A DNA stretch of 35,652 bases from Lachnospiraceae bacterium (GTDB taxonomy: Bacteria > Bacillota > Clostridia > Lachnospirales > Lachnospiraceae): assembly GCA_030526195.1 (NCBI GenBank), contig JAUNDG010000025.1, positions 1-35,652 of the forward strand, written 5' to 3'. Below, one piece after another: positions 1,755 to 32,062 of the stretch. Positions within the stretch are counted from its first letter, which is position 1; each line of letters begins with the position of its first letter. A model generated the notes under the pieces. That model saw only the letters and a program-made list of their open reading frames with translations, had not been told where the DNA came from and did no database searches. Made by a program: the position numbers and the translations under genes.

Positions 1755-2924
1755 TTGACAGATAAGAGACCCCTTCAAACGGAACAAACAGAATATGGCG
1801 AGGCCTGTTCGCTGCCGGCGGTATCGGACAAAGGAACGAAAGGTAATGGCTCGGATCTGAAAAAGCAGAAAGCCAGACTGCTGCGGTCCTGCTTTATCCT
1901 TTTTGTGGCCATGACCTCCCTGGTGGTGGCTGTTGTGGCCTGGTTTGTCAACAATTCGAAAATGCAGGCGACGGGCATCACCATCGGTCTTGATGACCGG
2001 GCCGTGGAGCTGCGCAGTTATGGCACGGCGGGTGTCCATGATGACGTGCTGAAACGCATTTTGGGCACCGATGGCGAAAAGGGTTTCTGGTACAAGCTGG
2101 GATTGGGCGCTAACCCATTTTCGGAAACGAGTACAGGATATGCGGCCATCAACTGGCTGCTGAGCCCGGACAGCAATATCGGCAATTACAGCGATGTGCC
2201 CGTTGACTGGACAGATCCCAATGCCAACCGACAGGAAATGGCCATCGAGCCCGGCTCCAGCGGACGGGTTAGCTTCAGCATCGTGCCGAAGTACAGCGGC
2301 GATGTGAAACTGGATATGAACCTGGATCTGATCCCTATGGCGGTGTCGGAAACCAGTTTTTCCGAAATCCCGGAGGACAGCATCGAGCATGGCTTTATTG
2401 ACGGCCATATTCGATTCTACATGATCAAGCCGGGCCTTAGCGGGGCGCAGTATCTTGAGTGGATCGAGGACGGGGCATTTTCAATCGAGATCGATAATGC
2501 CGAGGCGAACCGGGAGTACGTGTACACCCTGTATTGGTGCTGGCCGCAGACCTTTGCGGTGACGGTGCTGAAGGCTCGCGATGTGTACCTGAACGGCAGA
2601 GCGCCTCTCTTTTATGCCAATGTGGACGGCCTGATCGGGGCACTGTTTGGTAACAGCGAGGACATGCGCCGTTACTTGCTGACGGTGATGACCAATGATC
2701 CGCAGCATTATTTCTTCAGTAACCTGACCGGGGCGCCGCTTGAGCCGGGGCAGAAGGATCTGGCTTACATCGACGAAATTTACAACACACTGTCGACGGA
2801 TATGTCTTTTGAGGCAAGAAATGCCTTTGTTGAGTTGAGTTCTTATTACAATCAGGCCGACCAGTATATCGGGAAAAACGTCAATTGCGTGAGGGTTAGC
2901 CTGACAGGAGATTTGCGTGATTAA
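1755..2924 (+). CDS. Exported single-TM protein with AWF motif (operon gene 1)
   Basis: A 389-residue protein of no family I can name with certainty. It has a short basic cytoplasmic tail, one hydrophobic segment (about residues 45-65) and an outside domain of about 320 residues. The segment is followed at once by AWFVNNSKMQATGITI. This layout, a hydrophobic helix then an A-[YW]-F/T motif and a strand-rich domain, recalls SipW-dependent exported proteins such as TasA and camelysin; that link is inference. The start is TTG, chosen because GGAG (1744-1747) lies seven bases upstream and no ATG fits. Its end overlaps gene 2 by eight bases, so the genes are translationally coupled. It may be a subunit or partner of the giant secreted protein encoded downstream. 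Confidence 0.7.
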   Translation: MTDKRPLQTEQTEYGEACSLPAVSDKGTKGNGSDLKKQKARLLRSCFILFVAMTSLVVAVVAWFVNNSKMQATGITIGLDDRAVELRSYGTAGVHDDVLKRILGTDGEKGFWYKLGLGANPFSETSTGYAAINWLLSPDSNIGNYSDVPVDWTDPNANRQEMAIEPGSSGRVSFSIVPKYSGDVKLDMNLDLIPMAVSETSFSEIPEDSIEHGFIDGHIRFYMIKPGLSGAQYLEWIEDGAFSIEIDNAEANREYVYTLYWCWPQTFAVTVLKARDVYLNGRAPLFYANVDGLIGALFGNSEDMRRYLLTVMTNDPQHYFFSNLTGAPLEPGQKDLAYIDEIYNTLSTDMSFEARNAFVELSSYYNQADQYIGKNVNCVRVSLTGDLRD

Positions 2925-3696
2925 GAAACGGAAAGAAAAGAACAATCTATCACCGGAAAAGAGGGCGAAGCGTATGCTCACGGCCTCGGTCGTGTCATGC
3001 ATTGTGGCTGTGCTGGCGCTGATCATCGTGACCTTTTCCTGGCTGTCCTACAGAAGGGCGTTGGAGTCTCTGACATGGATCAAGATTCCCATCACCCTGG
3101 ATATCCAGAGCGGTGATAATCATAACATCGCGTATATGGATATGGGCAATATCGATGCCGATCAGGGTGAAAAGACCTATGTTTTCTGCGTCTACGGGGA
3201 GCCGGTGGATATTTATTCCCTTCAGCTGGCGTATACCACGAATATTGCTTTCTATTATGACGTGTACAGAGCGGATCTGGCCTCCGGCAGCGGGGACGTG
3301 GCTTTTTCATTTACGGATGCCGGTGGTGACCACACTGAGTGGTTCAACTATGTGAAGGATGGCAGCGGTAATATCGCCGCACCCGTCATTTCCGCAAAGC
3401 CTGTTCATGCGCTGACCAGTGCCCAGGTGGCGGAGCATCAGAGCCACCGTTTAAGCTATGGTGACGAGAAGGGGCTGAACCCCATCAGCACGGATAAGGT
3501 GCAGAGCAATGCCCAGCCGCTTTACTGGCTGGCCAATGAAAATGGCATGAGCGTGCTTAATCCGCGCAACATTCAGTTCCGGGATGCCATGAACCAGTAT
3601 TTCTGCGACTATTACATCATCAAAGTCAGATGGGATCCGGGCACCGTCGAAAATGACAAGGAAACCGACATGGTTTACTTGACCGCCAGCCGCTAA
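2917..3696 (+). CDS. Exported single-TM protein (operon gene 2)
   Basis: A 259-residue protein with a very basic N-terminus (about 20 residues), one hydrophobic segment (about residues 23-45, ending TFSWLSYRR) and an outside domain of about 210 residues rich in aromatic residues and predicted strands. The start is GTG with AGGAG at 2906-2910, six bases upstream, and it overlaps the stop of gene 1. The arrangement repeats that of genes 1 and 3, although sequence similarity is low. SFSWLSYRR sits where gene 1 has AWF and gene 3 has AAYTS, so the three probably share an export mode. Function unknown; a structural or assembly role for the surface protein is inferred from the operon. Confidence 0.65.
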   Translation: MIKKRKEKNNLSPEKRAKRMLTASVVSCIVAVLALIIVTFSWLSYRRALESLTWIKIPITLDIQSGDNHNIAYMDMGNIDADQGEKTYVFCVYGEPVDIYSLQLAYTTNIAFYYDVYRADLASGSGDVAFSFTDAGGDHTEWFNYVKDGSGNIAAPVISAKPVHALTSAQVAEHQSHRLSYGDEKGLNPISTDKVQSNAQPLYWLANENGMSVLNPRNIQFRDAMNQYFCDYYIIKVRWDPGTVENDKETDMVYLTASR

Positions 3697-3839
3697 TCTG
3701 TTGACGGCAGTGCGAAGGGGGCCTGAGCGCAAACTCGGATTCGGGAAATCTGACGGGACGGGCCGAAAAACGGGTCTGTGCTGCAGAATTGATAAGACAG
3801 AACGATAAGACAGCTCCGCCGGGGAAGGAGGATACAGAT

Positions 3840-4787
3840 ATGAAGAAACAGCCGAATATGAAGAAAATGAAGCAGTTGACCACTGTATTCTTTGTCCTTG
3901 CCGCCCTTCTGGCAGTCATCACCATCAGCTTTGCGGCTTACACCAGTATCAGTAGTGTGAAGCGAGTCGTCACCGTTAAGGGCACCGAGCAGTTATTTAC
4001 ATCAGACATCCTGATGCCCTATGAGGATGCGGACAATCTGGAGAGCCGGGTCATTTCCTTTGGCGCTGGGGCGACGGATAAGTCATTCGAGGTGAACATC
4101 TCAAACCACATTCAGGGCGACGTCAGCAAATACGATGCCAAGGGTTTCTCTTACACCTTTAACATGGAATTATTTGACCGGAACGGCAACCGGGTGACGG
4201 ATGCGGCGGTTTATCAGCAGTTGAAGATCAACGGCACGGCCATGAGCGCCAATCCCTATGCCATTTCCGGTGTTTTCCCGGGCGGTGCCTCCAAGGATGA
4301 TCTTTACAAGTTTACCCTGACGGATGATCTGATGGCCTGCAAGCTGAAGCTCACAGCCGTGTCTTCCGTCAATACCTATAAGCCCCTGGGCCGCCTTATC
4401 AGCTTCACCACGGACAAAACCAGTGCGAACTGGACCGGGGAGTTTATGACGGCTGAAAAGGTCACAGCGGTTATGAACAAAGAACTGGGCATGATCAATT
4501 ATCTGATCTCCGGCCATGTGGAGGAGGATTGCGTGCTGAGCTGGGATGCCACACGGGTTGATATTGATCAGTGGTTCCTGGATGATCTGGGGGTGACGCC
4601 TGAAGAGGGCGACGGCGGTCGGAAAATGCTGAGACTTCATCTGGGCGCCGAGAATACACCGGATCAGTACATCATCACTTTCTACAGAACCTATGCCGTT
4701 TCTGACCTTGAAAGTGAAACCTGGGATGATATTCAGTCATACATTTCATTTACTAATTCCAAGGATACATCGGGAGGCAGTCTATGA
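3840..4787 (+). CDS. Exported single-TM protein with AAYTS motif (operon gene 3)
   Basis: A 315-residue protein with a basic N-terminus, one hydrophobic segment (about residues 12-32) ending SFAAYTS, and a strand-rich outside domain. The ATG at 3840 is preferred over the in-frame ATG at 3789 because AAGGAGG (3825-3831) lies eight bases before it. The SFAAYTS junction resembles the (A/S)xAYFT motif of SipW-type signal peptides in TasA-like matrix proteins. That is a resemblance only: no SipW-like peptidase gene lies in the window. The stop overlaps the start of the giant gene (ATGA), giving translational coupling. A 143-base gap separates it from gene 2, without a terminator that I can see. 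Function unknown. Confidence 0.7.
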   Translation: MKKQPNMKKMKQLTTVFFVLAALLAVITISFAAYTSISSVKRVVTVKGTEQLFTSDILMPYEDADNLESRVISFGAGATDKSFEVNISNHIQGDVSKYDAKGFSYTFNMELFDRNGNRVTDAAVYQQLKINGTAMSANPYAISGVFPGGASKDDLYKFTLTDDLMACKLKLTAVSSVNTYKPLGRLISFTTDKTSANWTGEFMTAEKVTAVMNKELGMINYLISGHVEEDCVLSWDATRVDIDQWFLDDLGVTPEEGDGGRKMLRLHLGAENTPDQYIITFYRTYAVSDLESETWDDIQSYISFTNSKDTSGGSL

Positions 4788-7700
4788 AAAACATATATAA
4801 ACGGTTGATGGCCCTGTCGCTGTCGTTCGTGCTCTCGTGGCAGAGCGTCAGCGCGGTCTATGCCGATAACATAACGGGACTTTCGACGGCCGAGTCAGCT
4901 GTTGAAAGCCAAAACGGTCAGGTTTCCGGCGATGTCGGAGGCACCGGTTCTGTCGACAATATCGGGCGAGCGGATGCCGCAAGAGTCGCGGCTGTCAACG
5001 TTGACCCGCAGGCGGAAAACGACGCCGGCGCAGGCGCGGGCACAGGCTCGGATACCGGATCAGGCTCGGATACCGGATCCGGTTCAGACAGCGGCTCGGA
5101 ATCCGGCGCGGGTTCCGGTTCAGGAGAAGCACCCGGCACAGGTTCGGCGTCAGGCGATGGCACCGGTTCAGAAGGTGGTACCGGCTCGGGCGAGGAAACC
5201 GGCACGGAAGAGGGCGCCGGCTCAGGCGACGAGACGGGCTCGGAAGAGGGCAGCGATTCAGAAGACTCAGAAACTGAGGATGAGGCTGATTCAGAAGAAG
5301 ACAAAAAAGAAGATGACACTTTAAAAGATGAGGGGCTTTGGCCGGATGACCTGGGTGATGAGCTCATCACGCTGGATGGGCCGCCGGAACTCAAGAGCTC
5401 TCAGGACTTTTTTGACCTGTCCGCTTTGCCGGCTGATGTCTATCAGTATGCGGATATCACCATCACCCGTGCATCGGATGTTGCCTTTGACCTGACGGAA
5501 AAGGACGAAAATGGCCTGCCGAAGTTCAAGGGCTTCGGGTCTGCCGAATACCCCTTCATGGGGTCCATCACGGTGACCAACTATCAGTCGGGTATCGAGA
5601 TTCCTTTGGATACCCCGCTGTTTAACGCGCTGGATCAAAGCGCGGTGATTCACGAGGGCTTATTCCTGGAGGCCACGGTCGATACCAACAATCCGTTGCT
5701 GGCCGGCCAGTACACCAACAGAAATAATCTCCCGGAGGCCGGTCTTGTTCAGGTGAAGATCAATGCCCGGCAGAATATCAGCACCGGTGAGTTCCCCGGC
5801 TTCGGGGGTCTGATCGACACCATCGAAACCGGCGCAGCGCTGAGGCTCAGCGTGGATAATGTCACCGTGGCCGGCAATACCAGTGTGAACGGCAACGGCC
5901 ATATCGGGTTATTCTGCAATAACCTGGCAGCCGGGGCCCGGCTGGATCTTATGGCCTACACCGGCGACACAGCTTTTAGTGTCATGACCATTGGCGGTCA
6001 TGCCGGCGGCCTTATCGGTCAGATGGAAGCCGGTTCCGTGCTCAACTGCTATGCCTTTGCGGAGACCCTGACCCATACGGTCACATCTGCCGGCGGCTAT
6101 GCCGGCGGCCTTGTGGGGCATATGCAGGATGAAGCCGAGATCCACATTTTCTCAGGTGAAGGCACAGCTTTTGCCGCTGAGGTTACGGGCAACTTTGCCG
6201 GCGGCATCGCCGGGCGAGCCCGGAATCCGCATGTTGACAGCCAGAACGCCATTTTCGTCAGAGGCACCATGTCCGGCGACAGCGCGGCGGGCGGTTTTAT
6301 GGGTCTGGCGGAGTACGTCTCCGCTCAGGGCCAGGGCCGCGAGGTTGATTTTACGAAAATGACGCTGCAGGCGGCGACAAACGGCGGCCGTCATGTGGGC
6401 GGTGCCTACGGCGCTCTGAATCAGGGCGGCGCAGGCTCTCTGACTTTAAAAAATGGCTCTGTGACTTACACCCACAACAACGGGTTCACCAGCTGGCAGG
6501 ATGCGGGCTTTATCGGCCAGTATACCTGTGATAATCTGGCCGCTGTCCTGCGAGTTCAGGATATGGTGATCGATGTCACGGAAAAAGGCAGCACCACGGC
6601 TTACGGTGGTGTGATCGGCTATGTGGCGGATACCGGCGCAGCCGACTGCATCGCAAATGCGGGGGCCGCTTATGTGGAAATCGACCATGTGACGGTGACA
6701 GCTTCTGTGAACGGGGGCAGTGTGAGCGGCGTTGACGGGACCTTCGGTGGCCTGGTGGGCCAGATGAGCGGGTCCGGTCACTTTGTGAATATCAGTGGTG
6801 TCAACACCATTTCCTCAAACGGCAAAGTCGGGGCGACCCGTTGGGGCGGCCTGGTGGGGTCCGCAAAGAACGGGGCGATCCGCATCGCCGGCACCTCGGA
6901 TCTGGCGGGGCTTAGCACAGGCAGCCGGGGCAACACTGTCGGTGTGATCGTGGGTGAGATCAGCAGCACCCTGGTTTACGCCCTGGGCAGCGGCAATGAT
7001 GCCGCCACCTGGCTGCTGAAGCGCGTGAACACCACCCAGACCAGTGACGTGGGTTCCTACGGCTCCGTCACAAGACTCTATAGTCCCGATGCCACCGGTC
7101 ATGTTCTCACAGAAGCCGTGAGAACCGGCAATGCCCTGTCACCGGATCAGGCGGGGGCGGACGATGTGGTCGCTTTCTATTCAGACAGTCACCGCGTTGA
7201 AATCTGTTATAACGCCGGTGCCGATCTGGTGATCCGCAATAAGCGGGACCTGGTGGCCCTGGCCATGCTGATCCAGTGCGGCCTCACAGGCGATGTGGGC
7301 ACCTACCGGAATCAGGCCGGTGCCACAGCCAACATTCTGACAAAAGATATCACGGTGGATGCCGCCCTCGGCGGTCAGACCATTGATCTTGCCGGCACCG
7401 GCTTTACCGGCATGCTGCGGGATAATGACAGTCAGCAGTATACCGGCAACTTTGAGGGGCAGAATGTGACCATCAAGCTGGCGGTGGGCGAAGCGTACGG
7501 CCTGACGGCCGGCGGCAATGCGGCCACTTACGGCGACTCGGCGGCCGGTCAGATCTACAATCATCCGACCATGGGCTTCTTTAGCCGCGTATCCGGGATC
7601 ACCGTCAAAAATGTGACCTTCGACGGCATTTTCAACTTTGGTATGGTGGAAAATGGTCCCTTCGATCCGGTCAATTGCGGCATCGTGGCCGGGCAGGCCT

Positions 7701-10700
7701 GGAACGGCGTGACCTGCGAAAATGTCACGGTGAAGACGGTCATTTCCTATAAGGAAAAGGGCGGCGGCATCAAAAATGCCCGGGTGGCCGGGTATGTGGC
7801 CACCGTTTTCACGGGGGATTACAATTTCCTCAGCTGTACCATGGCGGGGCAGATCCTGAACACCTGCGGCGCCTGGTCTTTCTACAATGCCGGTTTTGTG
7901 GCTTACACCGATCAGCCCAATGCGAACTTCCGGTTTAAGGATTGTCGTCTGGAAGATATGGTGCTGTCCGCTGTGAGCATGGGGAGCAACTATTATGCCT
8001 TTATGGGTGGCCTTCTGGCTTATGCCCATAACTGCGGTCAGGAAAAGAAGATGGACATTGATGGCCTGACCATCACCAACTGTCTGATCGAGAATACGGC
8101 AAATGACCGGTCGGGTGGCCTTTTCGGTTACGAGTGGCAGGGCGTTTATGCCGAGGTAAAGGATGTGACCATCGACAGCTCCACCGTCAAAACCAACGCT
8201 GTTTTCGGCGGCCTGCTGTATGAACACACCGGTTACTTTAAGGTGGGCCGGGAAAATGCCGCTGACGGGACCTGCAGCGGGATCGCTTTCCGAATGAAGG
8301 ACGGCAAGGGGAATAGCTTCAAGGGAAAGACTCTTGAAAGCTCACCCTCAGCCCTGATGATCGCCACCACCAAGGATATCTATAATGAGTATTACTCTTA
8401 TATCGAGATCCTGAAGGATGGCTATGTGCTTGAGGACGGTGCGGTGACTGTGACCTTAAACGGCGGCAATTATTTTGATGATATTGCCGGTGTGACCGAG
8501 TATAAGGACAACGCCAATACGGTTGTGTCCATCGGTCTGACAGCTCAGTCTGCCGGTCAGGCGGTGCTGCTGGATGAGGCAGGCTGCAACAGCTGGCACA
8601 ACGGGTGCCTGGTCAACGGCAGCAAGGCCTACATCAACAGCCATACACGTTACTATTACAATCTGGATTATTACCGGAAGGCGGCGGGCACGGTGATCAG
8701 CACCATTGACACACCGGGCAAGCTTCTGCTGTGGAGTGTGAATGCCTATACCAACGCCACCGTTAACCTGAAGAATAAGAATTATTTCAGAGCCGGCAGC
8801 GGGGTCATCACCGGCAATCTGGATATGTCCGGTCTGTCTTATTACCCGGTGGTGGGTTATCGCAATATCAGCAATGCCGTTATCACCTTCGATTACGAAG
8901 GCATGAACGGTTATGAGATGGCTGAGGGCGATGGCGGCAACAAGGCCTTTGATCAGAGCAATCTGCAGCATTATCAGATGCAGACCGGCCTCTTTTCAAC
9001 GGTGAGTGCCGTCAAGGATAATGCGGTCAACCTCAAGGTGACAAACGTCACCCTGAAGGGCACGGTGGGTAAGTATACCGATCAGGCAGCGGGTGGCCTT
9101 GTCTGCAACAGCATCCGCGGCTATGACTCCAACTACAGAACCACCCTGTCCATCCAGGGCCTTCAGCTTGAAGGCTTCCGGGTAGCGGGCTTTAATGCGG
9201 GCAGCGACAGCCAGCCTCTGCTGGTCAATGCGGCCGGGTCATTTACGGCCATTGCCCTGGACAATGTGACTTATGATGAGGCTGCCTATGCACCGGATGG
9301 TCAGGTGATCAAGGCCGGTGCGGCGCTCATGGGCAGCATGGGCTCAACCGGCACGGAAGCCATCACCCTGAGCTTTTCCAATATGGCGCTGAACGGTAAG
9401 GCAAGCGAGAGCATTTTCTCAAAAGCTTCCTTTGCCACCAGCTTCATGTATAAGGACGAGGCCAGCGGCGGCAGCTACAACTTCACCCGAAATGCCACCA
9501 AGGTGACCTACGGTAAGGAAATCTCCAACGGTGTGGGCAATTCCCAGTACAACCGCAATGCTTACAATGAGGCTGACGGTACCGGTCAGGTCTGGTATCT
9601 GGATACCTTTGGTGAGACGACGGGAGATGTGTATGTTACTCCCACAGGTCCGGGGGCTACCCGGTATGATTTCACGGGGGCTTACCTGCCGTATATCGGT
9701 CACTGGGAAAATGCGGCGCAGAAGTATTATGAGATCGACGTCAACCAGAAGACTGTGTTCCTGGTTGACGGTTGTGGCACCTATGGCCATCCCTTCAAGA
9801 TCAAAGAGGTCAGAAGCAATTTTGACGATCCGTCTATTGCCGACGCCGATGCGGACAAGCTTTTCGGGGCGGCGGATCAGCTGCTGGCTATTATGAAACT
9901 GCTGGATGGGAAGGGCGACGGTACCGCCATCCGGATCAACAAGGCGGTGCTCAATAAAAAAGCCTCAACGGCAAACACGGCCAATACCGCCGGTCATCCG
10001 GACCAGCACACATCGGCCAATGTGCCGGCGGATGATATTGTCATCATCAAAGAAGGTGAAACCTGGTACGAGGCCGAAAATGACGGCATTCGATATAAGA
10101 AGAAAGAGGGCGGCACGTCCTTTGCCAATGCCATCGTCACCGCTTATATCCGAAATGCGTACTATCAGATCTGCGAGGATATCGAGCTGGATCTTGGCCG
10201 TTTCACCGGTATCGGCGGTGCCGGTACCTCCTATGCCTTCAGTGGTGTCATCATCGGTGACAACGCGGCAGCGCCCAGAACGGTGACCATCAAAGGCAAT
10301 GCCAAGAACGGCAACGCCGGCGGTCTTATCCGTTACAGCCAGGGGAGCGTTGTGAAGGATCTCAACATTGTCCTCAACAACGTGACCATCGGCTACAGCC
10401 AGGATTCCGATAAAGCCTCCTTCTTCGGCGGCGCCATCGGCTATGTGATCGGCGGCGACAATGTGATCGACCGCGTGAATGTCAGCGCGACGGGCCTGAC
10501 CATTTCCAAACAGCTCACAGCCGTGGGCGGTTTCGTGGGTCTGGTGGGCGGCGCAGACTGTAAGAAGGGCGGCGGTGTCATTTTCAGAAATATGACATCC
10601 CCGGGCTTAACAGCCTTTGCGGGGGAAGCCCCGGACAACGGCAACTATTACTGGAACCCCTATGTGGGCCGGGTGCTGGATGGCTTTGCCTGTGCGGAGG

Positions 10701-13700
10701 CCGCCAACTGCGGGTCCATGGGCGACAATACGGATAAGAATTACAAGATTCCGAAGCTGACCCAGGGGGATAAGCTGGATATCACCGGCGTGCGCAACGT
10801 CACAAAGGGCGGCGTGACCTTCTATTATGAAAGCACGGTGAAGCCGAATACGGCCCAGGATCTGTGGGTGCTGTCGGCCATCATCAACTCCGGCTACGGG
10901 GCCAAGGGGTCCAACGACTTCTACCCGAATATGCTGGTTAACACCTCCTATGCCCTGATCAGTGACGCCTCTTATTACGGCAGAACCCGTATCGGCGCTT
11001 ATGAGGGTGTGGGCACAGCGACCTATGATGCTGCGCTTGACGATGCGGATTTCTGGGGCGGCGTCAATACCGGCGACCACAGAAAGATGTCCAACAGCTA
11101 TCTGTCCACTTATGTGGCGCCCTTCGGCTCATATTCCGGTGCCACCATGATGTCTTTCCTGACATACGATTTAAGCGGTCGAAATATGACGCTGGCTGCC
11201 GGCGAGTATGATCTCAAGAGTTACGGCAACGGGTTCAGAGGCATCGGGCAGTCCTACACGAAGGCGCTCACCACCGGCGTTTATGCCACACGTCTGCGTA
11301 CCTTCCGTATGGGCGATTACAACACCACCTCCACCGCGATCAACGGAAATGGGGCTGTGGTCAAATATCAGCGTCATATTTACGAATACGGCACTGACAA
11401 CTTCAAGGTATTCCAGGCGGGTTTCCTGCCGCAGTATTATTCCAGCAGCAGCTACTCGACCATCGACCATACGGTCAAAAATGTAACCTTCGAGGCGGAA
11501 CTGACCTCTAATGTGAGACGGACCTCCTCGACGGATAAAACGTATTTCGGGATCATTTTCGGGACTGACGGCTGGACGAGCATTGCAGGACAGGAAATCT
11601 TCGATAATGTCTGCATCAGAAACTCGCTCATTTCCGGCGGGTATTATGCCGGTGGTATGCACGGCTATCAGTATTACGATACGCCGAATACCAATAAGTT
11701 TATTAACTGTAACGTAAATGGTCTGACCATCACCAATGCCAACTGCGGCGGCGGTTATGTGGGGGCCAATGACAACAAGAATTCTGCCAGAAAGCTTTAT
11801 TTTGACAACAGTCAGGATCCGGATAAGGCGGCTGTCGAGCATGTGACGATCGAGTCGGATGCCGGTAACCAGGGCGGCCTGGTGGGTTATGCCAATGTGC
11901 CGGTGACCCTCACCAAGGTGAAGGCGCAGGATGTCACCGTGACGCTGACCGCCTCTGAAACCAAGGCTGCGGCTATGATCGGCTGTGTGGGCAAGGGCGG
12001 CATCAAAGCCGATGAGGTGTCCGTGACAGATTCACATCTGAGCGGCGCCAGATACAGCGGTCTTCTGGCGGGGCATGTCGTCGACGGTGGTTACAGTGTC
12101 GATCTGACAGGCGGTGAGTTCCGGGATTCCGTGATGACCATGGAAAAGGCGGATAAGGCGCTGACAGCCGGCGGTGTTGTCGGTTTCATCAACGGTGGCT
12201 TTACCATCAATGCCACAGGGACGGCCGACACAGTGATCAGCGGGCTGCACATCAATGCGTATAAGGCTCAGAACGGGTCATCGGTGGGCGGTGTCGCCGG
12301 TCAGACGAACGGCAATGTCACCATCAACAATCTGCTCCTGTCAGGCATCAAAGCTGTCAATGCGGGTTATTCAGCCGCAGCCATCGGCCGCTGCGAGAGC
12401 GGCAACAGTCGGACATTTAAGAATGTCACTATTGAGGATGCGGCCATTGTGATTACGCAGCATTCTTCGTATACGGCAGCAGCCGGCCTGGTGGGTCTGC
12501 TTACGGTGGGGACGATTGATGGTTTCCAGATCGCCGGCAACAATAACCTCTATGGTTACCTGGTGGAAGGCAGTTCGGTCGATGCGGACTGCTCAACAAT
12601 CAAAGACGGCAGCGGTCAGATCGATTTTGGCCGTCTGTCTGCGGATACCATCGGCCGACGCGTCAACGATACACTCTATACGCCTTATTCACGACTGGCC
12701 TCTGATGTCACGTTCTATCACGCTGACAGAAGTGCTGAATATGTCGGGGAGGTGAACGGTGAAAATGCCGGCGCCATCAGACTGGTGGCGGTGACACGTC
12801 AGGGTCCGTATCACGGCATCCGTAATATCGGCTTTATTGAAAATGTTGTCAAAGCCGCGGCCAGAGACGGCAGTTATGTGATCTACAGCGATTACACCGG
12901 TCAGGCGCTTCAGTCAGGCGATGCCAATCCGGCTAAACAGGTGAGCCAGTTGCCGGACAGTGGCCTGGCCATGGCCGGGACAGCATTTACCGGCGACGGT
13001 ATTTCCATTGTGGACGGTGTGCCGGTGAGAGACAGCATCATTTCCGATAGTCTGGTGGATCCGTCTCTTGTGAAGGGTTATATCGGACCCGGCAATCCGA
13101 GAACCAAATCGAAGGAACGGTTCCTGGATGAGGTGATGAAGAAGTTCAGGACCGGTGGCCAATACGCCAATAAGCTGGCGATGTACAAGACGGAGGAGAG
13201 CACGACCCAGTATCAGGGCGAGCCGGATATCCCGATCCTTATTCTGGATACCACCTCCCAGACGGAGATCAATAAGCTGGTGAATGCTTATATCTCTGTT
13301 CTCACCAACAACGACCAGACCGGTACGGCGGATGGTCAGGCGGTGAGATACAAGACCATCGTGCCGAAAACCTACGCCTTTAAGAACGGCAGCTGGCAGG
13401 TTGCCGACAAGCCGTCACTGACCACCAATGCCGCCGGCCTTAAGGTGGTGTCGGGTCAGTTCGATAACACCAGAGACCAGGTGACGATCCTGGATGTTCA
13501 GTACAACAGCCCCATTTCCGGCTCAAAGGATGTGTATCATCTGTATATCCCGGTGATGGTGAAAAAGGTTATGGAAGTCCGTTTCTTCGTGAAGGTTACC
13601 AACGGGGCGGCCGGTTACGAGGATGCCTACGGCAACACCGGTGCGACTCTGGCCAGCTTCGGCAAGGACTTCACGGTGAAATTCTCGTTCCGGTACGACT

Positions 13701-15526
13701 GGACAGTGGCTGAGTGGAAAAATGCTGTGGCCAACGGGGATTCGCTTCTGTGGAGCTTTGACAAGACGGTCAGTCTGGATAACCTGGATGACCTTGACCT
13801 GAATAAGGTCAGGCTGTCTCTGGTGGATATGAACACTCACGGCAGCGGCAGTACGGTCTGCCAGGTCAAGGGGACGGTGCTGGATGATCAGTATCAGCTG
13901 GATCTGAAGACGCTGTCACCCGATTATCAGCCGGCCTTTATGTGTGATCTTCTGCCGCTGACCTGTACAGAGGCGGCAAACGGCGGTTATAAACGCCTGG
14001 CAGCGGATGAGGTCGATGATGCCACGATCCGTGTCTTTGACAAGACGGATGACTGTTACTATTATTACGCACCGAAGGCAGATGATGACGAACCCGGCAC
14101 ACAGTATTACACCATCACGGTGGAGACCAGCCTCTCCGATACGGCAATCCTGCCGGTCAATGAGCGGTATTATCTGGTGGTCAACTGTGCGGAGGGTCCC
14201 CGGATGTACAACAACCTGGTTGAACTGGGGTCTTCCGGTATCAAGGGCGGTCAGATCCCGACGGATCCGAAGTACGTCGAAAATGCCACCTATGTCTTAG
14301 GCGACTTCTATGCCATCAATGGTCTGATGCTTCAGTCCTTATCGGAAACCGGCAGTCAGATCATGAAGCACGAAAGCAATAACAAGATCACGGTGAGTCT
14401 GGACTCCTTTGTCGCCAACACCTCTCCGCAGCTGATTCAGTATGTTAATTCACGTGGTGTGTATTTCCGCTATGTGGTGGATATGCTGGATGAGAAGGGG
14501 GCACCGGTGGAAATTCAGGCTTCCTCAGTGGAGGTCGATACACTCCAGATCGGTGATACGGTGATTCCGGCAGTGGATGATCTGGAAAGCCTGTCCGCCG
14601 GCAGCAACGGGTACACTCTGTCGGTCAACGGCAACACCTGCTACGTGGACATCAAGGCCAACGGTCTGCTCTTTATTGATAAAGACATTCATGCCGATCT
14701 GATCTTTAATTACAATGACAGCCAGAGCATCTCACAGCAGTTCCCGGTCAGAGATGCCGGCAATGACGCCGGTGTTCAGTTCCGAGGCAAGGCCTATATG
14801 GCTTATGATAAGAATGCTTTGGGCAGCAGCAACATGAGTATGCAGACACCGGCCGAGGGCACACTCTATTACACAGAAGAGGCTTCTCAGGTAAGTCTGA
14901 CCTACGACTCCTACAACACCAACAGCGCTGACGGTAACACCAGTCAGCTGGGGCTTAACGGTCGGGAAACGCTGGGGGCGGATGCCCTGATCAAGACCCG
15001 CGCGTTGTTTAACGCAACGGCTATGTATGGGCTTAACACCACCAATGAGAACCATGAGCGGTATCCTTACTATCTGGAAGGCAGTCTCACCCTTCAGAAG
15101 AAGACGGAGGCGAATAAGGCATCCGGTGTGGGCAAGGCCTATTCGGCACCGCTCAACATCGCCGATTACCTGGCGGTGGCGGGGATCAGCGCGGATGACG
15201 CGGCGGTGGATACCACCTCAGGCGGCATGGGCGTTCAGCCTAATGGTAAGAGCTTTAAATTCCGGCTCGGTCTGACACCGGCTCAGGTGAAGGCCCTGTC
15301 CAAACAGCAGCTGCTCATCAACATCGACCTGAAGGTCAAGACGGCCTCCGGTCTTGAAGCTGTCACCGGCAGCCAGTATGCCAACTACCGGGTGGATATC
15401 GAAGCTCAGCTTCTTAACAAAAACGGGGATGCGCTCACGGCAAAACCGAGTGACTACCTCATTTACACCAATGCCAAGGTGTACAAGGGCATCATCGGTG
15501 TGACCGATGTGGGCGGCAACGATTAA
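4784..15526 (+). CDS. Giant secreted GLUG-repeat/beta-helix surface protein (3580 aa)
   Basis: A Sec signal peptide (basic KNIYKR, hydrophobic core, cleavage likely after VYA at residue 27) is followed by a low-complexity Gly/Ser/Thr/Asp/Glu linker (about residues 78-185). From there to about residue 2550 run repeated blocks with the GLUG-like motif GGLVG or variants (GGLIGQM, GGLVGHM, GGVIGYV, GGLVGSA) between short strands ending NVT, ITNC or VTFDG, as expected of a right-handed beta-helix. Several blocks begin with a segment like RNKRDLVALAMLIQCG. The last 1000 residues lack the repeats and look like strand-rich domains. The C-terminus ends VGGND, with no LPXTG signal, membrane segment, SLH or choline-binding repeats. 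GGGAGG precedes the ATG, which overlaps gene 3. Likely an extracellular adhesin or fibre; the role is inferred from architecture. Confidence 0.85.
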   Translation: MKNIYKRLMALSLSFVLSWQSVSAVYADNITGLSTAESAVESQNGQVSGDVGGTGSVDNIGRADAARVAAVNVDPQAENDAGAGAGTGSDTGSGSDTGSGSDSGSESGAGSGSGEAPGTGSASGDGTGSEGGTGSGEETGTEEGAGSGDETGSEEGSDSEDSETEDEADSEEDKKEDDTLKDEGLWPDDLGDELITLDGPPELKSSQDFFDLSALPADVYQYADITITRASDVAFDLTEKDENGLPKFKGFGSAEYPFMGSITVTNYQSGIEIPLDTPLFNALDQSAVIHEGLFLEATVDTNNPLLAGQYTNRNNLPEAGLVQVKINARQNISTGEFPGFGGLIDTIETGAALRLSVDNVTVAGNTSVNGNGHIGLFCNNLAAGARLDLMAYTGDTAFSVMTIGGHAGGLIGQMEAGSVLNCYAFAETLTHTVTSAGGYAGGLVGHMQDEAEIHIFSGEGTAFAAEVTGNFAGGIAGRARNPHVDSQNAIFVRGTMSGDSAAGGFMGLAEYVSAQGQGREVDFTKMTLQAATNGGRHVGGAYGALNQGGAGSLTLKNGSVTYTHNNGFTSWQDAGFIGQYTCDNLAAVLRVQDMVIDVTEKGSTTAYGGVIGYVADTGAADCIANAGAAYVEIDHVTVTASVNGGSVSGVDGTFGGLVGQMSGSGHFVNISGVNTISSNGKVGATRWGGLVGSAKNGAIRIAGTSDLAGLSTGSRGNTVGVIVGEISSTLVYALGSGNDAATWLLKRVNTTQTSDVGSYGSVTRLYSPDATGHVLTEAVRTGNALSPDQAGADDVVAFYSDSHRVEICYNAGADLVIRNKRDLVALAMLIQCGLTGDVGTYRNQAGATANILTKDITVDAALGGQTIDLAGTGFTGMLRDNDSQQYTGNFEGQNVTIKLAVGEAYGLTAGGNAATYGDSAAGQIYNHPTMGFFSRVSGITVKNVTFDGIFNFGMVENGPFDPVNCGIVAGQAWNGVTCENVTVKTVISYKEKGGGIKNARVAGYVATVFTGDYNFLSCTMAGQILNTCGAWSFYNAGFVAYTDQPNANFRFKDCRLEDMVLSAVSMGSNYYAFMGGLLAYAHNCGQEKKMDIDGLTITNCLIENTANDRSGGLFGYEWQGVYAEVKDVTIDSSTVKTNAVFGGLLYEHTGYFKVGRENAADGTCSGIAFRMKDGKGNSFKGKTLESSPSALMIATTKDIYNEYYSYIEILKDGYVLEDGAVTVTLNGGNYFDDIAGVTEYKDNANTVVSIGLTAQSAGQAVLLDEAGCNSWHNGCLVNGSKAYINSHTRYYYNLDYYRKAAGTVISTIDTPGKLLLWSVNAYTNATVNLKNKNYFRAGSGVITGNLDMSGLSYYPVVGYRNISNAVITFDYEGMNGYEMAEGDGGNKAFDQSNLQHYQMQTGLFSTVSAVKDNAVNLKVTNVTLKGTVGKYTDQAAGGLVCNSIRGYDSNYRTTLSIQGLQLEGFRVAGFNAGSDSQPLLVNAAGSFTAIALDNVTYDEAAYAPDGQVIKAGAALMGSMGSTGTEAITLSFSNMALNGKASESIFSKASFATSFMYKDEASGGSYNFTRNATKVTYGKEISNGVGNSQYNRNAYNEADGTGQVWYLDTFGETTGDVYVTPTGPGATRYDFTGAYLPYIGHWENAAQKYYEIDVNQKTVFLVDGCGTYGHPFKIKEVRSNFDDPSIADADADKLFGAADQLLAIMKLLDGKGDGTAIRINKAVLNKKASTANTANTAGHPDQHTSANVPADDIVIIKEGETWYEAENDGIRYKKKEGGTSFANAIVTAYIRNAYYQICEDIELDLGRFTGIGGAGTSYAFSGVIIGDNAAAPRTVTIKGNAKNGNAGGLIRYSQGSVVKDLNIVLNNVTIGYSQDSDKASFFGGAIGYVIGGDNVIDRVNVSATGLTISKQLTAVGGFVGLVGGADCKKGGGVIFRNMTSPGLTAFAGEAPDNGNYYWNPYVGRVLDGFACAEAANCGSMGDNTDKNYKIPKLTQGDKLDITGVRNVTKGGVTFYYESTVKPNTAQDLWVLSAIINSGYGAKGSNDFYPNMLVNTSYALISDASYYGRTRIGAYEGVGTATYDAALDDADFWGGVNTGDHRKMSNSYLSTYVAPFGSYSGATMMSFLTYDLSGRNMTLAAGEYDLKSYGNGFRGIGQSYTKALTTGVYATRLRTFRMGDYNTTSTAINGNGAVVKYQRHIYEYGTDNFKVFQAGFLPQYYSSSSYSTIDHTVKNVTFEAELTSNVRRTSSTDKTYFGIIFGTDGWTSIAGQEIFDNVCIRNSLISGGYYAGGMHGYQYYDTPNTNKFINCNVNGLTITNANCGGGYVGANDNKNSARKLYFDNSQDPDKAAVEHVTIESDAGNQGGLVGYANVPVTLTKVKAQDVTVTLTASETKAAAMIGCVGKGGIKADEVSVTDSHLSGARYSGLLAGHVVDGGYSVDLTGGEFRDSVMTMEKADKALTAGGVVGFINGGFTINATGTADTVISGLHINAYKAQNGSSVGGVAGQTNGNVTINNLLLSGIKAVNAGYSAAAIGRCESGNSRTFKNVTIEDAAIVITQHSSYTAAAGLVGLLTVGTIDGFQIAGNNNLYGYLVEGSSVDADCSTIKDGSGQIDFGRLSADTIGRRVNDTLYTPYSRLASDVTFYHADRSAEYVGEVNGENAGAIRLVAVTRQGPYHGIRNIGFIENVVKAAARDGSYVIYSDYTGQALQSGDANPAKQVSQLPDSGLAMAGTAFTGDGISIVDGVPVRDSIISDSLVDPSLVKGYIGPGNPRTKSKERFLDEVMKKFRTGGQYANKLAMYKTEESTTQYQGEPDIPILILDTTSQTEINKLVNAYISVLTNNDQTGTADGQAVRYKTIVPKTYAFKNGSWQVADKPSLTTNAAGLKVVSGQFDNTRDQVTILDVQYNSPISGSKDVYHLYIPVMVKKVMEVRFFVKVTNGAAGYEDAYGNTGATLASFGKDFTVKFSFRYDWTVAEWKNAVANGDSLLWSFDKTVSLDNLDDLDLNKVRLSLVDMNTHGSGSTVCQVKGTVLDDQYQLDLKTLSPDYQPAFMCDLLPLTCTEAANGGYKRLAADEVDDATIRVFDKTDDCYYYYAPKADDDEPGTQYYTITVETSLSDTAILPVNERYYLVVNCAEGPRMYNNLVELGSSGIKGGQIPTDPKYVENATYVLGDFYAINGLMLQSLSETGSQIMKHESNNKITVSLDSFVANTSPQLIQYVNSRGVYFRYVVDMLDEKGAPVEIQASSVEVDTLQIGDTVIPAVDDLESLSAGSNGYTLSVNGNTCYVDIKANGLLFIDKDIHADLIFNYNDSQSISQQFPVRDAGNDAGVQFRGKAYMAYDKNALGSSNMSMQTPAEGTLYYTEEASQVSLTYDSYNTNSADGNTSQLGLNGRETLGADALIKTRALFNATAMYGLNTTNENHERYPYYLEGSLTLQKKTEANKASGVGKAYSAPLNIADYLAVAGISADDAAVDTTSGGMGVQPNGKSFKFRLGLTPAQVKALSKQQLLINIDLKVKTASGLEAVTGSQYANYRVDIEAQLLNKNGDALTAKPSDYLIYTNAKVYKGIIGVTDVGGND
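5015..5330 (+). repeat. Low-complexity linker region with 18-bp direct repeat
   Basis: This part of the giant gene encodes a Gly/Ser/Asp/Thr/Glu linker. An 18-base unit, CAGGCTCGGATACCGGAT, is present twice head to tail (5043-5060 and 5061-5078), with decayed copies after it. Such tracts change length by slippage, here always in multiples of three codons, so linker length may vary between strains. The protein becomes strongly acidic towards the end of the tract. Confidence 0.75.
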
Positions 15527-15601: not shown

Positions 15602-15931
15602 TTATAGTTTATTTTTTTGCACTCTGCGTTGTGCCGTTTCGTATACTTCATCGTCCGCACGGGCACCGATGACAACAACGAGCAGTTCTGTTTCGGTTCG
15701 AATTAATTTGTATACAATGCGGATGCCGGCAGATTTGAGCTTGATTTTTAAGAGGCCGGAGAGCTTTGTGGAGGCATGGTTGCCAAGGGGCTTTCCATAA
15801 CCGCCTTCATCGGCAGGCAGCGGATTTGTACAGACTTTTTTCAAGGCTTTTTGTACAAGAATACGCTGGCTACCATCTAAAGCTCGTAAATCCTTTTCGG
15901 CCTCCGGGAGAAAAATGGTTTTCCAATTCAT
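15602..15931 (-). CDS. RelE/ParE-family toxin
   Basis: A 109-residue protein of the RelE/ParE superfamily. It begins WKTIFLPEAEKDLRALD, the usual first strand and helix, then KPLGNHASTKLSGLLKIKLKSAGIRIVYKL, in which basic residues and the RIVYKL strand are characteristic of RelE-like mRNA interferases, and ends with a strand plus DDEVYETAQRR helix. RelE relatives cut mRNA at the ribosome; ParE relatives inhibit gyrase. The R-I-V-Y strand favours RelE/YoeB-like activity, but I cannot decide. The start codon overlaps the antitoxin stop (ATGA). The stop lies two bases from an 18-bp direct repeat whose other copy is beyond the antitoxin promoter. Confidence 0.85.
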   Translation of the reverse strand: MNWKTIFLPEAEKDLRALDGSQRILVQKALKKVCTNPLPADEGGYGKPLGNHASTKLSGLLKIKLKSAGIRIVYKLIRTETELLVVVIGARADDEVYETAQRRVQKNKL

Positions 15932-16251
15932 TCGAATTCAACCTCTTCGTATCCGGCAAGATCATCGTCAGTGATACCCAAACGCTGATTCATTTCCTCG
16001 AAAGGAATGGTTTTTGCAGGTGCATAGTTTTCCAGGCGTTCTGTGGCCAGTGCCAGCAGTTTGGCATCATTCACCTGGTCCATAAGCTGTACGTATTCTT
16101 CCGGTGAAAGAAGGACACATTCAGGGGCGTTGTTCTTCATAACGACTTTGGCCCCCGAACGTTTGACTTCAGAAAAAATCTTTCCGGCCAGTCCGCGGTT
16201 GAATAAGGAAATGGAGATGGTATCTTCAATTGCACTTAATACAGATCCCAT
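15928..16251 (-). CDS. Phd/YefM-family antitoxin
   Basis: A 107-residue antitoxin. The N-terminal part (SISLFNRGLAGKIFSEVKRSGAKVVMKNN, then APECVLLSPEEYVQLMD) is the Phd/YefM DNA-binding fold, which represses the operon's own promoter. The C-terminal part is acidic and probably disordered until it wraps the toxin. I chose ATG 16251 over the in-frame ATG at 16272 because AAAGGAGG lies eight bases before it. It is transcribed first and overlaps the toxin by four bases, the normal order for such pairs. A strong promoter lies upstream. Confidence 0.85.
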   Translation of the reverse strand: MGSVLSAIEDTISISLFNRGLAGKIFSEVKRSGAKVVMKNNAPECVLLSPEEYVQLMDQVNDAKLLALATERLENYAPAKTIPFEEMNQRLGITDDDLAGYEEVEFE

Positions 16252-16327
16252 GATCGTGGCCTCCTTTGTCAATTGTTCTGCCCCGTATCTTTTAGATTTG
16301 GGGATGTGGTGATGCTTTTACAATATA

Positions 16328-20359: not shown

Positions 20360-20392
20360 CCCCGCTTCAAAGACGTAGCGTCTTAAGCGGGG
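20360..20392 (-). repeat. Palindromic element, copy 1 (IS200/IS605-type end candidate)
   Basis: CCCCGCTT and AAGCGGGG form the outer stem, AAGACG and CGTCTT the inner one, with loop TAG. A near-identical hairpin is at 28852-28886. Flanks differ beyond a few bases. Hairpins of this form, with a TAA in the outer stem on the minus strand, are typical of the right end of IS200/IS605 (tnpB) elements; no transposase remains here. Confidence 0.5.
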
Positions 20393-20448
20393 TGCCTGGT
20401 CTGCTTGACAAATACGACAAGGACAGCGCCCAAGGCGCAGGTACAAAC

Positions 20449-22059
20449 ATGGAAAAACGCAGAATCCTGAAAAACAAAACCTTCCTATATCTAACGGAGT
20501 TCTTCGCCGGCATGTCCCTCATGGCGGTGGAACTGGGGGCCAGCCGTCTGTTGGCGCCGTATTTCAGTTCCTCTCAGATCGTGTGGACCATCATCATCGG
20601 CACCATCATGATCGCCATGGCACTGGGCAATGTCTACGGCGGGCGCAGCGCGGATAAAAATCCGGATCCCGACAAGCTGTATAGCCGCATCATCGTGGCG
20701 GCGGTGTGGATCGCTCTCATTCCGGCGGTGGGGAAATACGTGATCATGGGCATCTCGGCGGTACTCATTTTTTCAGTGAACAGCGGGTTTTTGATCTGGG
20801 CCGCTTTCGCCGCCTGCATGGTCATTTTCGTCTTTCCGCTTTTTCTGCTGGGCACCGTGACACCCTGCCTTGTGAAATACACGGTGGAAGACCTGGGGGA
20901 CAGCGGTAAAACCGTGGGTTTGCTCAACGCCTCCAACACCATCGGCAGCATCATCGGTACCTTCGTGCCCACCTTTGTGACGATCCCGTCCGTGGGGACC
21001 TCCATCACCTTCCTCATTTTCTCCGGGATCCTGCTGCTTCTGTGCACCATCTATTTCTTCAGCGGCGGCAAAAAGTCAAAGAAAGTCATTGTGGGCATCG
21101 CGGTTTTCGTGATCGCCTTCATCGTGGGCAAGTCCGACAGTTTTGCCTTTTGGGAAAATGACCTGGCCTACGAGGGGGAATCGGTCTACAACTACCTTCA
21201 GGTAAAAGAAAATGAGGATACCGTTTACCTTTCAACCAACGTGCTTTTCGGCGTTCAGTCCGTGTACGAAAAATCGGAGACACTGACGGGGCTTTATTAT
21301 GATTACGCCATGGCGGCCCCGCTTATGACGGGGGTGCATGAGAAGGATCATCTTGACATGCTGATCCTGGGCATGGGCACCGGAACCTTTGCCACCCAGT
21401 GTCAGCGGTATTTCAGTGAGGATACGGCGTTGGCCATCGAGGGGGTGGAGATCGACGAGTCTATCACCGATCTGGCCCGGGAGTATTTCGCTCTGTCAGA
21501 GGATATCCCCGTTTACACCTATGACGGCCGGGCTTACCTCAACGCCGTTGACAAAACATACGATGTCATCATGGTGGATGCCTATCAGGACATCACCATT
21601 CCGTTTCAGATGACCTCCATTGAATTTTTTACCATGGTCCGTGATCATCTGAAAGATGACGGGGTGCTGGTGGTCAACATGAATATGCGCGGCGAGGAGA
21701 GTGGCAGCATCAACGAGTACCTGGCGGACACCATTTCTGCCGCCTTCTCTGAGGTCTACACTGTGGATGTGCCCCGGTCCACCAACCGGGAGCTGCTGGC
21801 CTCCAACAACCCGGACATGCTGGCCGTCTTTTCCCGTAATCTTGAAAATGAGTCTCGCGAAGACCTGAAGGCTTTGCAGGAAAACACTTTGGAAAACCTG
21901 GTGCGGTACGAGGCCGGTGATCATGTGATGACAGATGACAAGGCGCCGGTGGAACTCCTCAGCATGAGGATGATCGATGATCTTATCGAGACGGAAGCCA
22001 ACTATTACAAAGGCATTTATAAGGAAGAAGGGCTGGAAGGCCTGTTGGCGGCGTTTTAG
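20449..22059 (+). CDS. Membrane-fused spermidine-synthase-like protein
   Basis: A 536-residue two-part protein. Residues 1 to about 230 carry about seven hydrophobic segments beginning FLTEFFAGMSLMAVELGASR, the membrane domain found fused to spermidine-synthase-like enzymes. Residues about 245-500 form a SpeE-type aminopropyltransferase/methyltransferase fold: the nucleotide motif LILGMGTGTFATQ, an acidic residue in GVEIDESI for the ribose of the cosubstrate, DGRAYL, and VDAYQDITIPFQMTS where spermidine synthases have their catalytic aspartate loop. Because the substrate loop differs, true spermidine synthesis is unproven. I chose ATG 20449 (AGGT eight bases upstream); the longer in-frame GTG at 20392 lies in a hairpin. 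No speD-like gene is in the window. The gene is monocistronic with its own terminator. Confidence 0.8.
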   Translation: MEKRRILKNKTFLYLTEFFAGMSLMAVELGASRLLAPYFSSSQIVWTIIIGTIMIAMALGNVYGGRSADKNPDPDKLYSRIIVAAVWIALIPAVGKYVIMGISAVLIFSVNSGFLIWAAFAACMVIFVFPLFLLGTVTPCLVKYTVEDLGDSGKTVGLLNASNTIGSIIGTFVPTFVTIPSVGTSITFLIFSGILLLLCTIYFFSGGKKSKKVIVGIAVFVIAFIVGKSDSFAFWENDLAYEGESVYNYLQVKENEDTVYLSTNVLFGVQSVYEKSETLTGLYYDYAMAAPLMTGVHEKDHLDMLILGMGTGTFATQCQRYFSEDTALAIEGVEIDESITDLAREYFALSEDIPVYTYDGRAYLNAVDKTYDVIMVDAYQDITIPFQMTSIEFFTMVRDHLKDDGVLVVNMNMRGEESGSINEYLADTISAAFSEVYTVDVPRSTNRELLASNNPDMLAVFSRNLENESREDLKALQENTLENLVRYEAGDHVMTDDKAPVELLSMRMIDDLIETEANYYKGIYKEEGLEGLLAAF

Positions 22060-26423: not shown

Positions 26424-26537
26424 TCATCCGGTAACCGGGGGCGACTCAACCCGCACATCCGATTGTGTTGTGCGATGAATCGGCCCGAAAATGGGACTGA
26501 GATTAAATATGAGCTGACTGCGGAAAGGAGGGGGCCT

Positions 26538-28721: not shown

Positions 28722-28799
28722 TTTCGGGATGCTAAACAAGTCCGAAAATCAGGCGCACTGGCGAGAACTGACGGCAGATCAATTCAATAAAAAAGTTAG

Positions 28800-28831
28800 A
28801 AAGAGTCGTTGTCTTCGGACAGCGGCTCTTT
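28800..28831 (+). terminator. Terminator with UUCG loop after the first hybrid kinase
   Basis: A 14-base stem (28800-28813 with 28818-28831, two G-T pairs) capped by TTCG. An A-run precedes it and a short T-run is in the right arm. Confidence 0.8.
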
Positions 28832-28851
28832 CTTGAACTGCAACGAGCATT

Positions 28852-28886
28852 CCCCCGCTTCAAAGACGCAGAGTCTTAAGCGGGGG
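28852..28886 (-). repeat. Palindromic element, copy 2 (IS200/IS605-type end candidate)
   Basis: CCCCCGCTT and AAGCGGGGG form the outer stem; inside, AAGAC pairs with GTCTT. It matches copy 1 (20360-20392) at nearly every position, in the same orientation. On the minus strand the outer stem contains an in-frame TAA for the short open frame upstream, as at the right end of IS200/IS605 elements. Confidence 0.5.
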
Positions 28887-29080
28887 TTACGAGTGTCCTC
28901 TTTCCATCCCGAAGTGGCATAGAGGTGGTGCCGAAGAGATTGCGCGAACAATTGAGGGGGTCGAGCGAAAATGCTTTCACAAAAGAGCGATTCGCGGTAA
29001 AATGAAGTGAATACCTATCAATTAGAAGACAAAAATGAAGATTTATCCGATTTGTTGTCAGCCAAAGACAGGAATGATAT

Positions 29081-31957: not shown

Positions 31958-32062
31958 AACACCACACAGGTCCCGACTGGTACAGTGAACAGCAGCCGGC
32001 ATCGAATTTAATCGCGCCGCAGGCCGGGAGTCCCTGTCCGGTGCAAAAGAAAGGATACCTGA

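Follow-up and report, generated by a model that had tools for sequence, protein, structure and literature searches.

The four-gene locus and its conservation

The window analysed here is the entire contig C38 (35,652 bases) of the 2.54 Mb draft genome of Lachnospiraceae bacterium GCA_030526195.1. Four consecutive genes of the same direction, orf1, orf2, orf3 and a gene for a giant protein, span positions 1755-15526, and all four reading frames are present in the order given by an earlier, sequence-only reading of the window. The features of the locus are listed below by position, with strand and description.

1755..2924, +: orf1, 389 aa, TTG start; SipW-type exported protein, proposed adaptor to the core fibre subunit
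1941..1988, +: mature orf1 N-terminus, WFVNNSKMQATGITIG; donor-strand-like segment common to core major subunits, from the shuffle test
2917..3696, +: orf2, 259 aa, GTG start; SipW-type exported protein, proposed connector
3840..4787, +: orf3, 315 aa from the likely ATG; SipW-type exported protein, proposed connector, predicted mostly beta
3789-4787, +: longer reading of orf3, 332 aa from TTG
4784..15526, +: giant, 3,580 aa, exported protein
4784..4864, +: giant signal peptide, ordinary Sec-type, cleavage after VYA read by eye
6005..12301, +: giant motif stretch, containing all 18 GG-hydrophobic-hydrophobic-G motifs
15377..15526, +: giant C-terminal tail, shared consensus YANYxVxxxAxL ... SDYxIYTNAKI, with variants in the second copy of the genome (contig C12) and in locus L010
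15579..15603, +: terminator-like hairpin 3' of the giant gene, 1 found against a shuffle mean of 0.1

Coupled translation had been proposed from the overlaps of 8 bases between orf1 and orf2 (2917-2924) and of 4 bases between orf3 and the giant gene (4784-4787), both of which are real. Since AGGAGG stands before ATG 3840, this codon is most likely the real start of orf3; with this start a gap of 143 bases separates orf2 from orf3, and coupling is not shown at that junction. A promoter scan 5' of orf1 found none. Directly 3' of the giant gene, at 15602-16272 (-), lie two small genes resembling a RelE-type toxin and a Phd/YefM-type antitoxin, and a row of three large hybrid sensor kinases occupies 26463-35203 (+); both were recognized by eye.

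Eleven giant loci were collected, two from this genome, 7 from a pattern-based scan of genome contigs and 2 from a survey of 391 genomes of the class. Loci L013 and L015, whose contigs begin inside the giant gene, were left out; in all of the nine loci with sequence upstream of the giant gene, the order orf1-orf2-orf3-giant is found on one strand, so that the fixed company of the three small genes is borne out. In L012, orf1 (a fragment), orf3 and the giant gene are broken frames. A second complete, strongly diverged module is located on contig C12 of the same genome: its orf1, orf2 and orf3 products are 22-26% identical to those of contig C38 by BLAST, and its giant, of 3,340 residues, is alignable with that of contig C38 over most of its length. 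Upstream of this second cassette, the gene at L004 4717-7305 (-) appears, by eye, to encode a leucine-rich-repeat lipoprotein of the BspA kind.

The class survey was performed with improved profiles and covered orf2 and the giant. Full-length orf2 (E below 1e-60) and full-length giant genes were detected in the identical 3 of the 391 genomes, in 4 loci each, side by side; full-length orf2 occurs only beside a giant gene in this set, in agreement with the sequence-only reading, which had staked its case on small-gene homologues not commonly occurring without one. Weak, partial orf2 matches in genomes G407, G040, G263, G406 and G199 and on contig C7 of this genome (E 8.5e-4 to 5.6e-7) were left out of the member sets, as were weak, local giant matches in G228 and G444. 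A search for orf3 in 40 relatives gave no match.

Each of the four genes was placed in a tree of 8 or 9 tips; in every tree the contig C38 and L009 copies are sisters with a support of 1.000, and the cassette was therefore inherited as a block. The C12 copy is not the sister of the contig C38 copy in the gene trees, so the two copies of this genome were either gained separately or duplicated long ago.

Signals and folds of the exported proteins

Each of the three small proteins has a single strong hydrophobic segment, located at the N-terminus, as had been read from the sequence. The hydrophobic stretch is closed by a conserved site, [AG]-WF in orf1, [AS]-W[FL] in orf2 and A-[AE]Y in orf3, the hyphen marking the point of cleavage; in the contig C38 proteins it reads AVVA-WFVNN for orf1 and ISFA-AYTSI for orf3. 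Residues W63/F64 (orf1), W42 (orf2) and A49/Y51 (orf3) are invariant in the family alignments. Position P1 is Ala, Gly or Ser in all 25 small proteins and P2' is aromatic in 23 of the 25, the exceptions being Leu in orf2 of contig C38 and of L011; since the search patterns were taken from the same alignments, these counts describe conservation and are no independent test.

According to an excerpt of PMC10269814, the TasA site, TWA-AFND, is cut by the ER-type peptidase SipW, and an aromatic P2' is absent from 143 verified E. coli LepB substrates. The same excerpt supplied the arrangement by which SipW substrates were recognized, a small P1 and an aromatic P2' after a hydrophobic stretch, and orf1-3 have it. 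The helices of orf1-3 thus look like cleavable SipW-type signals, which SipW would remove, rather than permanent membrane anchors. This bears on the earlier proposal of an assembled surface structure in place of a lone adhesin: the co-inheritance of the four genes speaks for it, the helices no longer look like anchors, and the assembly itself is still a matter of inference.

Family models were not matched by the small proteins. At E<=1, orf1-3 gave no match to the NCBIfam cognate_SipW model or to the Pfam TasA/camelysin family models, nor did they match BsaA (TIGR04090, NCBIfam); all these results count against a fibre module. Searches of Pfam, NCBIfam and solved structures with all four proteins returned no convincing relative, the comparison of the giant with solved structures being made on one 421-residue stretch. 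The matches of lowest E-value, a photosystem chain with orf1 (E 0.0048) and the FosB model with orf2 (0.0058), were unconvincing.

The three small proteins had been called dissimilar, and this was upheld: profiles of the orf1, orf2 and orf3 families show no similarity to each other past the signal, and BLAST finds among them only weak matches, all of which include the signal region. They had also been described as having strand-rich outside domains, a claim which could be followed in two of the three by structure modelling and with which both models agree. The orf3 model (5 sequences) is of moderate quality, with a mean pLDDT of 69.5, and consists mostly of strands. Foldseek reported 122 matches for it at E<=0.001, headed by a transglutaminase chain (3.2e-6) and with a glycosidase at rank 5. 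The best 50 of these 122 are mostly antibody chains, together with clostridial Cpe0147 repeats, glycosidase and RbmA, a biofilm matrix protein; TasA is absent from these best 50. The orf3 model thus resembles the Ig-like beta domains of many proteins, with TM-scores on the query of about 0.2 throughout. The orf2 model (6 sequences) is poor (mean pLDDT 57.3); a copper-binding surface protein is among its best matches (E 8e-4) and TasA appears at rank 6 (E 0.058), while clostridial toxin binding domains, at E 0.13 and above, were given no weight. As predictions, the two models neither rule out nor demonstrate a role in a beta fibre, a jelly-roll fold as in TasA/camelysin, or the unrelated enzymatic folds that the sequence-only reading had named as contrary to it.

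The giant has no hydrophobic segment above the threshold used for strong transmembrane segments, and no LPxTG motif was seen in its last 70 residues. Its homologues form frames of 3,313-3,632 aa in seven other loci. It had been assigned to the GLUG proteins (Pfam PF07581), which is only loosely correct. A GGLVG-like GG-hydrophobic-hydrophobic-G motif is indeed repeated in it, with 18 occurrences where shuffled sequences have 1.9 on average and 7 at most, but under the HMMER filters the Pfam GLUG model matched neither the contig C38 giant, with the limit set at E 1 or at E 10, nor the L009 giant at 10. The giant thus has the repeated motif in common with GLUG-motif proteins and differs from them in this lack of a family match, and its full-length relatives fall only within its own family. 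It may have the beta-helix fold proposed from the sequence.

Association with a SipW/McrBC-like core

The module goes with a second group of genes, referred to here as the core, which consists of two SipW peptidases, a McrB-like NxD GTPase of the AAA type, a DUF2357 protein, a membrane protein and fibre-like subunits. In five loci, L009, L010, L011, L012 and G315, the module has core genes next to it. A SipW-type gene lies upstream of orf1 in L011 (at 17 bases), L012 and L010, the distance in L010 being about 0.7 kb and including two small frames of doubtful status; the SipW identity of the L010 and L011 genes is backed by NCBIfam. In L011, AAA and DUF2357 genes precede the SipW gene, and in L009 a membrane protein and a TasA-like subunit precede orf1. 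The most complete run is found in G315, where genes for a membrane protein, SipW, the AAA protein, the DUF2357 protein, a second SipW and a 173-residue protein are followed by orf1-3 and the giant. Locus L014 begins at orf1 and is uninformative in this respect. In the genome under study and in G241 the module and the core are on different contigs, and no core genes were seen within contig C38, which counts against the link.

The core of this genome is on contig C7 and includes a PilZ protein, the membrane protein, five proteins with SipW-type signals, SipW, the AAA protein, the DUF2357 protein and SipW again, so that here, as in G315, SipW genes flank the GTPase/DUF2357 pair on both sides. Both C7 SipW proteins score over the cut-off, two further matches in the genome being weaker and below it, and SMxP and THR motifs are present in all 7 aligned SipW proteins; by these scores and motifs, the genome has the ER-type Ser-His signal peptidase which SipW-dependent proteins require. 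The C7 AAA protein has the motifs GISGTGKT, LIVLDEMN and NNDD (NxD), and its G315 counterpart, 49% identical, has GISGTGKT, IILLDEMN and NNDD; a strong hydrophobic segment covers residues 61-79 of the C7 protein. The C7 DUF2357 protein matches PF09823 (E 6.4e-13), and its tail, rich in A/E/K/Q/R/L, suggests a coiled coil. Among the C7 subunits, one protein reaches 12.6 bits with the cognate_SipW model, against a cut-off of 19, and one matches the BsaA model at E 0.24, below the cut-off. The core membrane protein (L026 1109-2209, L029 5224-5952) has an outside domain in common with the fibre-like subunits (hhalign E 1.3e-10) and is a possible membrane anchor of the fibre.

The features of the core recall the CoCoPALM clade, described in part of PMC11090510 by a McrB-like NxD GTPase fused to a transmembrane and coiled-coil (FtsB-like) segment, a McrC-like DUF2357/coiled-coil protein and associated signal peptidases. 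The core on C7 and its relatives have an NxD GTPase, whose hydrophobic segment may correspond to the transmembrane part, a DUF2357 protein with a coiled-coil-like tail and signal peptidases, and by these traits the C7-type core fits the clade. In the portion consulted, PMC11090510 names the clade for a guessed role in pilus assembly, leaves its description to a later paper, and differs from the present case in mentioning neither SipW substrates nor a giant; the four-gene module is proposed as cargo, not as part of the core.

The core GTPase was detected at E<=1e-30 in 23 of the 391 class genomes, including all 3 that bear a giant. The corresponding hypergeometric probability for giant and core, 1.8e-4, overstates the link and was not used as a test, because the GTPase profile was built from the sequences of this genome and G315, two of the three cases; G241 is the only independent one. 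Neighbourhoods of the core were studied in 16 stretches from 15 of the 23 genomes, plus C7 and G315, leaving out G138, G158, G233, G268, G415 and G433. A SipW match (E<=1e-4, home-made profile) was found in 14 of the 16 stretches, and proteins with SipW-type signals in 9 of the 16 by scripted rules; the first rule overlooked several proteins, which were recovered with a looser one or by eye.

Some of these stretches deserve separate description. L074 and L075 (G411, G251) carry core-related AAA-DUF2357-AAA triplets, with no SipW gene recognized in the stretch, and may represent a different branch or role. L066 and L067 (G199) and L072 (G407) contain five, three and two SipW-like genes, respectively, interleaved with small exported proteins around the core, which suggests a pairing of peptidases and substrates. 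In L063 (7775-13468) and L065 (11521-15120), four proteins with SipW-signal-like N-termini (up to 877 aa, some read by eye) stand between DUF2357 and the second SipW; these sets may be other cargo modules, and no giant was recognized in those cores.

Neither the giant nor the core GTPase was found in 41 other genomes of the genus, of which 17 are at least 90% complete with low contamination. On contig C7 the core sits between a peptidase-like gene and a block of response regulator, kinase, HisH and HisF genes ordered as in G021, where the peptidase-like gene adjoins the regulator directly, although the C7 peptidase-like gene is only 29% identical to its G021 counterpart. In G004 a 3,035-residue gene separates kinase and HisF, and the stretch of G002 is too short for this comparison. 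This one comparison fits an inserted island of about 13 kb. Beside the C7 core, L028 3-1043 and 1390-4038 encode a surface-repeat protein and a peptidase-like protein, both resembling a single 1,062-residue protein of G021.

The absence from congeners would also follow if the contigs were misbinned and module and core came from a different organism of the metagenome, and the GAPDH gene of contig C38 (23608-24717, -) is closest to a genome outside the genus, being 64% identical to one from another family of the order and only 39% identical to the other copy of this genome, on C30. Against this, the HisF encoded near the C7 core shares 87% identity with that of the congener G002, the core lies within a gene order common to G021, and the contig C38 gene at 20392-22059 is present in 17 of 24 congeners but in none of the 16 other genomes. 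After these checks misbinning is a highly improbable explanation. The GAPDH gene, which points outside the genus, was probably acquired.

Proposed assembly of the module and alternative explanations

It is quite probable that the four genes are inherited together as an export module and that this module is linked to a core of the CoCoPALM kind, a grading which allows for the partly circular statistic of the class survey. A candidate point of contact is the N-terminus of mature orf1. A shuffle test compared the 14 residues that directly follow the site. Those of orf1 resemble the core major subunits in all 8 cases (p<=0.023, with p<=0.0008 in 6 of them), no such resemblance was found for orf2 (p>=0.57 throughout, 8 scored out of 9) or orf3 (p>=0.30, 8 of 8), and the four other C7 subunits are intermediate (p 0.015-0.27); these p-values count related proteins as separate, and the test was devised after the BLAST result. 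The latter consists of a match of contig C38 orf1 to the C7 major subunit over 45 residues, limited to the signal and N-terminal segment, and of a match to another C7 subunit over 176 residues (25%, E 6.7e-6). As this longer alignment shows, orf1 resembles the core beyond the strand and may be more broadly related to the core subunits, a point against the fibre scheme given below. An hhalign comparison past the signal aligned columns 1-33 only (E 0.035), and this weak match also counts against that scheme.

Excerpts of PMC9674648 and PMC10151520 describe TasA fibres as held by donor-strand exchange, the mature N-terminus being the donor strand, and TapA as an initiator whose N-terminal strand is common to TasA. 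The N-terminal segment common to orf1 and the core subunit parallels this, and by analogy orf1 would be the adaptor to the core fibre subunit. In the reading preferred here, for which the chances appear about even, the SipW/McrBC-like core would make a TasA-like fibre, and the adhesin module would be exported alongside this fibre and attached to it. SipW would cleave the signals of orf1-3; orf1 would donate its strand to the core fibre subunit; orf2 and orf3, which have different N-termini conserved within each family, would join in a fixed order; and the giant, which has an ordinary Sec signal and no such strand, would accept the last one, forming a long, non-anchored, beta-rich end able to bind a surface, mucus, a polysaccharide or another cell. 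At the membrane, the GTPase pair may regulate or energize assembly or release. The exact arrangement of adaptor, connectors and giant as an ordered donor-strand tip is a tentative part of this scheme, somewhat less probable than the attachment to a fibre as such; in hhalign comparisons, pieces of the giant, including its C-terminal parts, showed no similarity to the subunits by which an acceptor domain could have been recognized through homology, which counts against the scheme. More doubtful still is the generalization that a McrBC-type GTPase pair at the membrane and two SipW peptidases build Gram-positive donor-strand fibres capped by interchangeable cargo modules, the cargo here being a tip of about 4,500 residues in the order adaptor-connector-connector-giant.

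Two other arrangements of the same proteins are each rather unlikely. The helices of orf1-3 might remain membrane-embedded and tether the giant to the cell surface in a complex that forms no polymer, as the one strong hydrophobic segment of each small protein would allow; the subunit-like domain behind a hydrophobic segment in the core membrane protein, noted above, also indicates that anchored relatives may exist. The conservation of SipW-type sites in all three families and the two over-cut-off SipW genes of the genome argue against such anchoring. Alternatively, orf1-3 and the giant might be loose biofilm-matrix proteins, co-regulated with TasA-like fibres and physically separate from them. 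The sipW-bsaABCRSD operon of Clostridium perfringens includes extra putative secreted proteins, and BsaA polymerizes without BsaB and BsaC, according to part of PMC7395162; the presence of RbmA among the many Ig-like matches of the orf3 model points the same way. Yet the fixed order and co-inheritance of four unlike proteins suggest contact between them, as does the orf1 strand match.

It is very unlikely that the core is an anti-phage system with the cassette as its defence effector or a hitchhiker. The idea arises from a match of the GTPase to PDC-M26A, a model of candidate defence proteins (E 4e-40, strongest over 226-345 of 543 aa), and from the placing of McrBC in a restriction family in the consulted part of PMC11090510, but SipW genes occur near the GTPase in 14 of 16 stretches, and no PADLOC model was matched at E<=0.01 by the two DUF2357 proteins compared.

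The preferred reading, that of a module built onto a core-made fibre, may be compared with systems already known. SipW-dependent surface fibres and CoCoPALM are known by name. With TasA/TapA/SipW of Bacillus subtilis, as described in the excerpts of PMC9674648 and PMC10151520, it has in common an ER-type signal peptidase, a SipW-type site in which Ala is followed, two positions on, by an aromatic residue, beta-rich subunits and an accessory protein with the N-terminal strand of the subunit (TapA there, orf1 here). It differs in that no sequence similarity was detected and in having three unlike accessory proteins, a partner of 3,300-3,600 residues, a GTPase pair and a second peptidase. The C. 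perfringens operon offers, in the part of PMC7395162 consulted, a clostridial SipW-dependent polymer with extra secreted proteins, but no counterpart there to the GTPase pair or the giant, and the module proteins lack a match to the BsaA model. In chaperone-usher pili with a tip adhesin, minor subunits are ordered and the tip accepts a strand and gives none. An excerpt of PMC10151520 compares TasA with the chaperone-usher pilus; the likeness to the module concerns its proposed logic only, no homology is claimed and no usher or chaperone was recognized. Among the matches listed in open-licence papers, the name CoCoPALM occurs in PMC11090510 and its preprint only, the rest being unrelated, and no description of what CoCoPALM acts on was found. 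Neither the module with its giant nor its connection to the core was found among the matches listed in open-licence PMC papers, and the matches listed for GLUG, camelysin and giant proteins hold nothing on this system.

The module represents a concrete, co-inherited candidate cargo for CoCoPALM, with a candidate contact between the orf1 N-terminus and the core subunit and with a giant end piece. If the proposed scheme is true, some Clostridia would carry a swappable, mobile class of giant adhesins, and a family of McrBC-like motors would act at the cell surface, a restriction-enzyme motor having been turned into a pilus-building machine.
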